64,000 nucleotides of DNA from Achromobacter xylosoxidans A8 (lineage in GTDB: Bacteria; Pseudomonadota; Gammaproteobacteria; Burkholderiales; Burkholderiaceae_B): NCBI RefSeq assembly GCF_000165835.1, contig NC_014640.1:5456001-5520000 (forward strand). The letters run 5' to 3'. Positions 8,963-12,718 of the stretch are shown piece after piece. The translations under genes were made by a program, and so were the position numbers. The notes beneath the pieces are model-generated. The model searched no databases and was not told the DNA's origin. It worked only from the letters and a program-made list of their open reading frames with translations. Numbering within the stretch: position 1 is the stretch's first letter; every line of letters starts with the position of its first letter.

Positions 8963-9595
8963 TCAAGCCTGCGGCGCGCGGCGGGCCGATTTGGGACGAA
9001 AGGCTGTAATGACTTCCGGCCGGGTCTCGGCGTACGGGCCGCCGATGAGATCGATGCAATAGGGGATGGCGGCGAAGATGCCCGGCACCAGCACGGCGCC
9101 GTCCTCGCCCTTCAGCCCTTCCAGCGTTTCACGGATGGATTTCGGCTGGCCGGGCAGGTTCACGATCAAGGCGGCATGGGCGGGAGTTTCCCGGATGACC
9201 GCCACCTGGCGCGACAGGATGGCCGTGGGCACGAAGCGCAGGCTGATCTGGCGCATCTGCTCGCCGAAGCCGGGCATTTCCTTGGTGGCGACGGCAAGCG
9301 TCGCCTCCGGCGTGACGTCGCGGCGCGCCGGACCGGTGCCGCCAGTGGTCAGGACCAGGTCGCAGCCGCAGCCGTCCACCAGCTCGATCAGCGTCTCCGA
9401 GATGCGCGCGGGCTCGTCGGGGATCAGCCGGTCCACCGCCTGCCAGGGCGAGGCCAGGGCACCGCCCAGCCATTCGCGCAGCGCGGGCAGTCCCAGGTCC
9501 TGGTACGTGCCGCTGGAGGCGCGGTCGGAAACGGACACCAGGCCCACGATCAGTTCGTCGGGGTGCTTGCGGGCGATACGGGTAGTGGTGGTCAT
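8963..9595 (-). CDS. mogA: Molybdopterin adenylyltransferase MogA
   Basis: A 210-residue enzyme that adenylylates molybdopterin before molybdenum insertion. It matches E. coli MogA closely over LIVGLVSVSDRASSGTYQD, LVLTTGGTGPARRDVTPEATL, MPGFGEQMRQISL and LPGQPKSIRETLEGL. The ATG giving MTTTTRIARKHPDEL is used because it gives the family length; two upstream in-frame ATGs at 9622 and 9661 would add low-complexity extensions and have no better ribosome site. The product supports molybdenum enzymes such as the nitrate reductase encoded later in the window. Its neighbour dltD is divergent. Confidence 0.92.
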   Translation of the reverse strand: MTTTTRIARKHPDELIVGLVSVSDRASSGTYQDLGLPALREWLGGALASPWQAVDRLIPDEPARISETLIELVDGCGCDLVLTTGGTGPARRDVTPEATLAVATKEMPGFGEQMRQISLRFVPTAILSRQVAVIRETPAHAALIVNLPGQPKSIRETLEGLKGEDGAVLVPGIFAAIPYCIDLIGGPYAETRPEVITAFRPKSARRAPQA

Positions 9596-9874
9596 GGGCT
9601 GCACGATCTGGGTAAGGGGCATGCGGGCGGCGCGGTTGCGGCGGCGGGCGAGGTCAATCATGGAAATCCAGAAGAACCCCGCCACAGCGATGCTATCGCA
9701 TTCTTTCCCTGCGGGAATCGCGGCGGCAGGCCGCGCACCGGCGCCGGACCCTGTGGCAAAAAGGCGAATCGGCTTTGGCCCCGCTTTCCCGCGCTTGTTC
9801 CGGTCATTCCTGCTCGATAACATCCGCTAACAAACCTCCCCTATAGAGAGAGCCCCGCGCGGCATTGGTTCCCC

Positions 9875-10999
9875 ATGTTCAAACGCACACTACGGCAGCA
9901 TGCGCTGGCGGCGGCGCTGGCCCTGGCGGTGGCGACTGCCGCCGGGTGGGCCGCCCTGCACGCCCTGGCGCTGAAGACGGAGCCGGTGCCGGCGGCCGCG
10001 CCGGGCATCTACATCCCCAATCTGGGCAATACGCTGCAGGAACAGACGCGCAACCTGTCCCGCATGAGCCAGGCCTTGCGCACGGGCGACCGGCTGGTGA
10101 TCCTGGGCTCGTCCGAGTTGACCAGCAACGACCTGCGTTTCGTGCCCTACCGCTACCTGGCCGACGAATTGCAGATGCCGGTGCTGGCCTACGGCCATTC
10201 GGGCTTCCAGTCGCTGGGCATGCAGCTGGTGCTGGCGGCGGTGGCCGAGGACTTGTCGCCGGCGTCGCGCGTGGTCGTGATGCTGTCGCCGGGGTGGTTC
10301 GACGGCGAGGGCGGGCTGGGGCCGGACGAATTCAAGGAGCACGCCAATCCGCTGCTGCCCCGCTTGCTGCGGCAGCCCGAGGGCCGCGCGGAGCTGGTCC
10401 GCTGGCTGCAGGCCAAGGGCGATGCGGGCGTCGCCTGGTCGATGGCGGCCGAGCAGGCTTACGTCTTCCGCCAGCGCCTGGTCGATCTATGGGCGCCCGC
10501 CCATGCGGCGCCCGCCCCCGAGCGCGAACGCGAGGGGCCGCCCACGGCCGCCCGGGTGGTCGATTGGGAAGCGCTGGCGGCCCAGGCGCAAGGCGCGGAA
10601 CAAGCCCTGATGGGCGGCAACCGCTACGCGGTGCGAGACGAGTTCTTCAATAAATACCTGCGCAGCATTCCCGCAGGCGGCAAGACCGCCTATCAGCCGC
10701 AGCCGCTGACCGGCCGCGACGAGCTGCGCGAACTGGACGCCCTGATGGCTTTGCTGCGCCAGCGCGGCGTCGATGCCCTCTTTGTCATGCAGCCGCTGCA
10801 CCCCCTGGCTTTCAAGGATCTGGACCGCTTCGGCCCGGTGCAGCGGGAAGTCGCGGCGCTGTGCCAGCGCTACGCCATGCGCTGCATGGATATGTACAGC
10901 GCCCCCTTCGAAGTGGGGACGCTGCGCGACGTGCAGCACCTGGGAGAGCTGGGCTGGCTGCGCGTGAACCAGAAGATCGCGGAAGTTTTCTACCCATGA
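9875..10999 (+). CDS. dltD: DltD-family acyl (D-alanyl) transferase/esterase
   Basis: A 374-residue protein with an N-terminal membrane anchor (about residues 9-30) and a periplasmic SGNH-like domain. Family marks are LVILGSSELTSND with the nucleophile at about Ser80, the SPGWF segment after strand VVVML, and the C-terminal DVQHLGELGW with Asp352 and His355, corresponding to the rest of the catalytic triad. In Gram-positives DltD transfers D-alanine onto teichoic acid; in Bordetella a dlt-like (dra) locus modifies the cell surface. Here dltA, dltB and dltC are not adjacent: mogA is divergent upstream. A tiny DltX-like gene follows 13 bases later. Confidence 0.8.
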   Translation: MFKRTLRQHALAAALALAVATAAGWAALHALALKTEPVPAAAPGIYIPNLGNTLQEQTRNLSRMSQALRTGDRLVILGSSELTSNDLRFVPYRYLADELQMPVLAYGHSGFQSLGMQLVLAAVAEDLSPASRVVVMLSPGWFDGEGGLGPDEFKEHANPLLPRLLRQPEGRAELVRWLQAKGDAGVAWSMAAEQAYVFRQRLVDLWAPAHAAPAPEREREGPPTAARVVDWEALAAQAQGAEQALMGGNRYAVRDEFFNKYLRSIPAGGKTAYQPQPLTGRDELRELDALMALLRQRGVDALFVMQPLHPLAFKDLDRFGPVQREVAALCQRYAMRCMDMYSAPFEVGTLRDVQHLGELGWLRVNQKIAEVFYP

Positions 11000-11012
11000 A
11001 GGAAGGCCGGCA

Positions 11013-11138
11013 ATGAAACGAACCCTGTGGCTGTGCCTGCTTTACCTGGGCGTCCTGGCGGTGATGCTGATCCAGGCGGACACTGCGGCGAACCTGGGCA
11101 AACCGATGGAAATCGAGTTCCAGTATTCGAAATTCTGA
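11013..11138 (+). CDS. DltX-like 41-residue membrane peptide ending in FxYxxF
   Basis: A 41-codon gene not usually called because of its size. GAAGG sits at a good distance from its ATG, and it starts 13 bases after dltD. The product has one hydrophobic helix (TLWLCLLYLGVLAVMLI, residues 4-20), a short linker, and ends exactly in EFQYSKF. That C-terminus satisfies FxYxxF, the conserved terminal motif of DltX, the small dlt-operon protein whose terminal tyrosine is proposed to carry the D-alanyl group between DltB and DltD. Position, size, topology and terminal motif all agree. Known: motif and role in Gram-positives. Inferred: same role here. Confidence 0.7.
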   Translation: MKRTLWLCLLYLGVLAVMLIQADTAANLGKPMEIEFQYSKF

Positions 11139-11242: not shown

Positions 11243-12718
11243 ATGTTCGACCTCTTCCACGGCCTAGACCTCTGGGTTGGCCTCAGCCTTGCGCTGGCCC
11301 TGACATTCGTCCTGGCCTTCGAATTCATCAACGGATTCCATGACACGGCGAACGCCGTGGCCACGGTCATCTACACCAAGGCCATGCCGCCGCATCTGGC
11401 GGTAGTGCTTTCCGGCATATTCAACTTCCTCGGCGTGCTGCTGGGCGGCGTGGGCGTGGCCTATGCCATCGTGCACCTGCTGCCGGTGGAACTGCTGATC
11501 AATGTGGACACGGGCCGCGGGCTGGCCATGGTGTTCGCCATGCTGGCCGCGGCCATCGCCTGGAACCTGGGCACCTGGTACTTCGGCATCCCGGCGTCCA
11601 GCTCGCACACGCTGATCGGCTCGATCCTGGGCGTGGGCCTGGCCAATGCGCTGATCACCGACCTGCCGCTGGCGGACGGCGTCAACTGGGGAAAGGCCAT
11701 CGACATCGGCCTGTCCCTGGTGGTGTCGCCGGTGGCCGGCTTCCTGGTGGCGGGCGGCCTGCTGCTGGCGCTCAAGCGCTGGCTGCCGCTGTCGAAGATG
11801 CACAAGACGCCGGAACAGCGCCGCGCCCTCGACAACAAAAAGCATCCGCCCTTCTGGAACCGCCTGGTGCTGGTGCTGTCCGCCATGGGCGTGAGCTTCG
11901 TGCACGGCTCCAACGACGGCCAGAAAGGGATCGGCCTGATCATGCTGGTGCTGATCGGCATCGTCCCCGCCAATTTCGTGCTGGACACCAACAGCACCAC
12001 CTACCAGATCGAACGCACCCGCGACGCCGCCAACCACCTGAACGTGTTCTACCAGCGCAACGAAGCCATGCTGGGCGACTACCTGGCGCTCAAGCGCGTG
12101 GACGCGACCACCGAGCTGCCGCGCAACTTCCGCTGCGATCCCGAGCTGACCATGCCGACCATCGCCGCGCTGCAGACCGATCTGCACGGCGTGTCGAATT
12201 ACGCCGACCTGTCGGCCGAAAAGCGCATCTCCGTGCGCCGCTACCTGCTCTGCCTGGACGACACGGCCAAGAAGGTCGCGCGCATCGAAGGCCTGCCCGC
12301 GCGCGAACGCGCCGACCTGCAACGCCTGCGCGCCGATCTGACGGCCACCACCGAATACGCCCCCTTCTGGGTGATCGTGGCGGTCGCACTGGCGCTGGGC
12401 GCGGGCACCATGGTCGGCTGGCGCCGCGTGGTGCTGACGGTGGGCGAAAAGATCGGCAAGCAGGGCATGACCTATGCACAGGGCATGTCCGCACAGGTGA
12501 CCGCCATGGGCGCCATCGGCATCGCCAACGTCTTCAGCCTGCCGGTGTCCACCACCCACGTGCTGTCCTCGGGCGTGGCCGGAACGATGATCGCCAACAA
12601 GAGCGGCCTGCAAGGCAGCACCGTGCGCAACATCCTGATGGCCTGGGTGCTGACCCTGCCCGCCTCGATGCTGCTGGCCGCCGGCCTGTTCTGGATTGGA
12701 GTGCAGATCGCCGGCTGA
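11243..12718 (+). CDS. pit: PiT-family inorganic phosphate transporter
   Basis: A 491-residue inner-membrane carrier for phosphate (as neutral metal-phosphate) driven by protons. Both PiT signature repeats are visible: FEFINGFHDTANAVATVIYTKA near residues 27-48 and FVHGSNDGQKGIGLIMLVL near residue 220, separated by a long hydrophilic loop after about residue 255 and followed by more membrane spans including SLPVSTTHVLSSGVAG. Length matches E. coli PitA (499). There is no adjacent PhoU-like (DUF47) gene. An 11-base-pair hairpin follows the stop. The start is MFDLFHGLDLWVG; a CCTCC-rich stretch precedes it and no strong ribosome site is seen. Confidence 0.93.
   Translation: MFDLFHGLDLWVGLSLALALTFVLAFEFINGFHDTANAVATVIYTKAMPPHLAVVLSGIFNFLGVLLGGVGVAYAIVHLLPVELLINVDTGRGLAMVFAMLAAAIAWNLGTWYFGIPASSSHTLIGSILGVGLANALITDLPLADGVNWGKAIDIGLSLVVSPVAGFLVAGGLLLALKRWLPLSKMHKTPEQRRALDNKKHPPFWNRLVLVLSAMGVSFVHGSNDGQKGIGLIMLVLIGIVPANFVLDTNSTTYQIERTRDAANHLNVFYQRNEAMLGDYLALKRVDATTELPRNFRCDPELTMPTIAALQTDLHGVSNYADLSAEKRISVRRYLLCLDDTAKKVARIEGLPARERADLQRLRADLTATTEYAPFWVIVAVALALGAGTMVGWRRVVLTVGEKIGKQGMTYAQGMSAQVTAMGAIGIANVFSLPVSTTHVLSSGVAGTMIANKSGLQGSTVRNILMAWVLTLPASMLLAAGLFWIGVQIAG

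Follow-up and report, generated by a model that had tools for sequence, protein, structure and literature searches.

In Gram-positive bacteria, teichoic acids are D-alanylated by the products of the dltXABCD operon. One account of this pathway (PMC12148441) describes how the MBOAT protein DltB takes D-alanine off DltC and loads it onto a tyrosine within the terminal FXYXXF of DltX, a peptide that binds both DltB and DltD, after which a serine of DltD receives the D-alanine. The same account describes PatA as using a fused hexapeptide for the same chemistry, and other MBOAT-SGNH pathways as having no DltX-like peptide. The dra locus of Bordetella pertussis (BP2987-BP2991) is described as required for the incorporation of D-alanine into the outer membrane (PMC9858536). 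On the Enterobacter cloacae plasmid pGX1Z-1L (L181), a 40-aa peptide ending in FEYQKF overlaps a DltD and is followed by an MBOAT, an AMP-binding protein and an acyl carrier. This dlt-like operon, of order D-X-B-A-C, has an IS on each side, and the plasmid was typed as conjugative.

Here we describe a locus of Achromobacter xylosoxidans A8 in which a DltD-family gene, dltD2 (D2), is followed by a gene for a DltX-like peptide, dltX2 (X2), within a window of 64,000 nucleotides (C1:5456001-5520000 of the 7.36-Mb genome). The genome has the DltD catalytic residues, a single-pass F-x-Y-x-x-F peptide, an MBOAT, a ligase and a carrier in common with the Gram-positive dltXABCD system, but Achromobacter is Gram-negative, its second D-X pair is encoded apart from the operon, and its X peptides are unmatched by Pfam DltX. 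The complete operon of A8, at about C1:674-678 kb, is probably the same kind of locus as dra of B. pertussis, judging from the role described for the latter, and the pair in the window comes on top of it. PatA/PatB and other MBOAT-SGNH pairs likewise pass an acyl group through a hexapeptide tyrosine to an SGNH serine (PMC12148441), but by that account their hexapeptide is fused to the MBOAT, whereas that of Achromobacter is a separate peptide, present twice. On pGX1Z-1L, in contrast, all parts lie in one operon, with no extra pair within the 11-kb stretch. The relay chemistry is already known; as far as the searched literature shows, the novelty lies in a D-X pair that stands on its own, in addition to a complete operon with a single MBOAT, and in the titles and abstract openings searched we found no second DltD-DltX pair in Achromobacter or Bordetella.

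Results and Discussion

The dltD2-dltX2 locus

The features of the locus are collected in Table 1.

Table 1. Features of the dltD2-dltX2 locus, in window coordinates
Feature	Position	Strand	Description
mogA (context)	8963-9823	-	Longest ORF; divergent from D2
Promoter-like element	9795-9823	+	5' of dltD2; TTGTTC, 17 bases, TAACAT; identified by conservation
dltD2 (D2)	9875-10999	+	374 aa; DltD-family SGNH transferase with N-terminal hydrophobic helix; Pfam DltD, invariant residues
D2 Ser80 codon	10112-10114	+	Catalytic residue
D2 Asp352 codon	10928-10930	+	Catalytic residue
D2 His355 codon	10937-10939	+	Catalytic residue
AGGAAGG	11000-11006	+	Ribosome-binding-like stretch directly 5' of the X2 ATG
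dltX2 (X2)	11013-11138	+	41 aa, single-pass; C-terminus EFQYSKF
X2 Tyr38 codon	11124-11126	+	Proposed acyl-carrying residue
pit-type phosphate transporter (context)	11243-12718	+	3' of X2

D2 matched the Pfam DltD model with an E-value of 4.9e-44 (151.5 bits against a cut-off of 22.7), and its NCBIfam LTA_DltD equivalog score of 89.3 was under the cut-off of 150. The three catalytic residues were invariant in a 17-sequence alignment of diverse relatives and in all 89 DltD rows compared (36 D2 and 53 operon DltD sequences), which bears out the family assignment and the Ser80, Asp352 and His355 motifs of the initial annotation. A profile of D2 relatives matched four solved DltD structures (6o93, 3bma, 7dxm and 6pfx). 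The best named relatives of D2 are from Achromobacter, with 96% identity to an A. aegrifaciens protein. A phage origin was rejected, as D2 had no match in the phage collection.

X2 begins 13 bases after the D2 stop, and the ribosome site, the one helix and the FQYSKF terminus that had been read from the sequence were all confirmed. Its one strong hydrophobic stretch averages 2.1 on the Kyte-Doolittle scale over 19 residues from residue 4, and the MKR preceding it suggests an N-in/C-out orientation. Some annotation sources label X2 a hypothetical protein. Among the 331 window ORFs of 30-120 codons, X2 was the only one with an F-x-Y-x-x-F end, compared with none of 15,997 in 20 single-base-shuffled windows. 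We compared 33 D2 loci of the genus, namely the window and 32 relatives, leaving out the second-DltD genomes G061-G064 and G066. An X2-type peptide ending in EFQY[S/Q]KF followed D2 in all 33, at distances from the D2 stop of -4 to 67 bases, so that in none of these loci had the end or the ORF been lost while dltD was kept. The 33 sequences were all distinct, with a pN/pS of 0.10, and of the 41 codons, 35 varied at third positions, 14 at first and five at second positions. X2 is a real gene, given its presence behind D2 in 33/33 loci and its pN/pS; a chance ORF is rejected on these grounds and by the shuffled windows.

As described at the outset, mogA is divergent on one side, pit lies on the other, and no dltA, dltB or dltC adjoins the pair. 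The mogA gene probably starts further in than its longest ORF, whose match to the family covers it only from residue 89 on. Within the promoter-like element, CTTGT and GATAACAT formed a footprint kept over the 33 genus loci; a scan of the window stretch for promoter consensus sequences listed neither this element nor any other. By eye, the D2 upstream region and that of the main operon had no common element (26 of 31 operon loci aligned, five being omitted for want of a usable dltC start). The stretch just before pit is kept in three genus relatives that have mogA and pit adjacent with neither D2 nor X2 between them (G003, G007 and G022), so D2-X2 appears to form a separate unit between mogA and pit. 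A complete dltC-D-X-B-A operon directly follows pit in three of six such loci (L094, L095 and L096, the first two matched to Candidimonas), and pit is absent from the stretch fetched in the other three; that an operon should stand beside pit as D2-X2 does in Achromobacter may be chance or an old shared site.

A complete operon elsewhere in the genome

A family search of the genome gave one MBOAT match and two DltD matches. The MBOAT lies within a complete operon (L002) of order dltC-D1-X1-dltB-dltA, whose parts by family are an acyl carrier, a DltD (D1), a peptide (X1), the MBOAT and an AMP-binding ligase. The initial annotation had supposed the MBOAT partner to be encoded elsewhere or replaced: MBOAT, DltA and DltC genes were all found in this one operon, and a replaced or absent MBOAT was rejected, with DltB in the genome and no second MBOAT found there. 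Its description of an isolated DltD holds for the surroundings of D2 and fails genome-wide, where the full operon has its own D1 and X1. The window locus is a second D-X pair, neither a lone relic nor a system with a replaced MBOAT. Among NCBIfam models, the operon MBOAT and ligase matched DltB and DltA best, in each case below the equivalog cut-off, and for this reason D-alanine is only the presumed substrate.

X1 (L002:6076-6285) has a 4-base overlap with the D1 stop, and its C-terminus is FQYQQF. Within Achromobacter its N-terminal tail is very variable (about 41 to 69 residues in total from the ATG), and its helix and C-terminus are nearly invariant. The operon DltB has no fused FxYxxF end and would thus need a separate shuttle. 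An X1-type peptide was present in all 61 other operon stretches, from 56 relatives' genomes.

A profile of nine X peptides found two full-length X in the A8 genome, each of them following a different DltD, with no other match at an E-value under 0.8; X2 matched over its full length, X2 being the profile's own first row. The nine peptides, which include X1, X2 and one enterobacterial sequence, have L10, Y11, Y38 and F41 in common. In single-DltD genomes we found one full-length X in 14/14 examined (of 17 seen), with an additional weak partial match in G022 (E 0.09), and in G106, which has two DltD matches, the profile found two X. Pfam DltX (PF12459) matched neither X2 nor X1, nor anything else in the genome, at E-values up to 10, and no Pfam or NCBIfam model matched X1 above its cut-off. 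A search of solved structures returned no DltX-like chain, only three weak, unrelated matches. X2 has the single membrane helix and C-terminal FxYxxF that characterize DltX, and each peptide has a dlt gene as neighbour, X2 lying beside D2 and X1 between D1 and dltB. In agreement with the initial annotation, a DltD and a DltX-like peptide, the putative parts of an acyl-tyrosine relay, are present in this Gram-negative.

Distribution and divergence of D2

A second DltD was present in 38 of 43 genomes of the genus, the exceptions being G003, G007, G022, G033 (57% complete) and G065. In G022 the stretch preceding D2 in its relatives is still there, and from this D2-X2 was probably lost in that genome. 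The pair also occurs in three genomes of a second genus, g31 (matched to Bordetella hinzii, B. pseudohinzii and B. genomosp. 12), at a different chromosomal site, with a pheT/ihfA-like gene and a MerR-like gene as neighbours (names from reading the ORFs). The D2 clade is thus common to Achromobacter and some Bordetella, always with its own X2. Four g31 genomes (G104, G107, G110 and G113) have an operon DltD and no D2. In a further g31 genome, G106, one stop interrupts the D2 frame, and dltB and dltA each match in two separate frames, as if the extra pair were decaying together with the operon, a single case in which assembly errors are possible. More broadly, DltD was found in 59 of 268 genomes of the family, in one of 369 drawn from the class (A8 itself) and in none of 24 genomes of other families.

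The tree was built from 54 chosen rows, and two sets of sequences retrieved by a protein search served as outgroups; the program warned that long branches meet. An earlier tree, whose only outgroup sat on a very long branch, was not used for rooting. D2 formed one clade (100/98), separate from a clade of the family's operon DltDs (100/100) that included the D1 set (94/70). Given these separate clades, D2 probably either predates the divergence of Achromobacter, Bordetella and Candidimonas, and was lost in places afterwards, or was acquired. A recent copy of D1 is not favoured, as D2 branches outside the family's operon DltDs, subject to the long-branch warning. Two further deep DltD groups were seen (P0078 and P0090-P0141), with one member labelled Gammaproteobacteria and one Bacillota.

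Fifteen positions were at least 97% conserved within both the D2 and operon groups, yet differed between them. Thr83, Asp143, Gln354 and Gly357 were present in 36/36 D2 sequences, where the operon DltDs had S, A, M and A in 52, 53, 53 and 52 of 53, respectively; all four lie near in sequence to catalytic residues or to the conserved SP-W-F block. Both D2 and X2 are under purifying selection. Over the same 528 pairs from 33 genomes, pN/pS was 0.196 for D2 and 0.084 for D1, with the higher pN in D2 in 525, and this roughly twofold faster evolution would fit relaxed constraint as well as it would a new role.

Proposed function and alternatives

X2 has the parts of a shuttle and the operon DltB is the only donor found in the genome, and on these grounds we lean, with little to spare, towards D2-X2 being a second module, made up of a transferase and its shuttle, that is served by the one DltB of the dra-type operon. 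We infer a route in which DltA and DltC of the operon would prepare an acyl thioester, presumably of D-alanine by family, DltB would hand the acyl group across the membrane to X2 at Tyr38, just as X1 would be loaded on its own tyrosine, and Ser80 of D2 would take the group on to a periplasmic or outer-membrane acceptor. As each DltD is accompanied by a peptide of its own (X1 for D1, X2 for D2), the shuttle is probably an adaptor deciding which DltD docks on DltB. The separate promoter-like element, the conserved differences and the age of D2 suggest that D2 would most likely serve an acceptor or growth condition different from that of D1. That one MBOAT has two delivery arms, each DltX-like peptide being matched to its own DltD so that the exchange of a 41-residue peptide and its transferase branches the exporter to two different envelope acceptors, is a more tentative proposal, to which we give somewhat less than an even chance.

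The use of DltB by both pairs is supported by exclusion. DltB lay beside D1 in all 36 D2-bearing genomes tested for MBOAT (33 Achromobacter and three g31), and it was the sole MBOAT match in 12 of the 33 Achromobacter genomes. At least one further match in the other 21 counts against the module, as do the capacity of a family search to miss a remote MBOAT, the lack of a Pfam DltX match for X1 and X2, the roughly twofold faster evolution of D2, and the dispensability of the pair, five of the 43 genus genomes (one of them 57% complete) having one DltD only.

The main rival to a different acceptor is that D2-X2 is a back-up isoenzyme, duplicating the reaction of D1-X1 on that pair's acceptor, with its own promoter adjusting the level of modification. 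Identical catalytic residues, a shuttle end of the same kind in both pairs, the conserved promoter-like element before D2 and the optional nature of the pair in the genus would all fit such a role, but D2 falls outside the family's operon DltDs in the tree (with the long-branch warning), the 15 conserved positions differ between the two groups, and a simple back-up would not need a peptide of its own. We regard a back-up role as rather unlikely, while taking it seriously. It is improbable that D2-X2 works free of DltB, shifting acyl groups between envelope polymers or removing them, with X2 as a mere anchor or carrier: DltD is an SGNH hydrolase-type protein, and the FmtA esterase of Staphylococcus aureus is described as needed for D-alanylation of wall teichoic acid (PMC12505958), but the FxYxxF end is the MBOAT-contacting part of DltX as described in PMC12148441, and no D2 was found without DltB in the 36 genomes. 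A slowly decaying paralogue without function is very improbable, for although D2-X2 is absent in some species, has a stop in G106 and includes a D2 that evolves faster than D1, the catalytic residues and shuttle end are kept in 33/33 genus loci and pN/pS is 0.10 for X2 and 0.20 for D2.

Conclusions

A small DltX-like gene is part of the dlt operons in this family (61/61 stretches), and one detected MBOAT together with two D-X pairs offers a natural experiment on whether the peptide and transferase set the acceptor. This bears on the partner choice of DltX-type peptides and on the targets of dlt acylation in Gram-negative bacteria, where, judging from the second pair, a single membrane enzyme may supply two distinct delivery arms.
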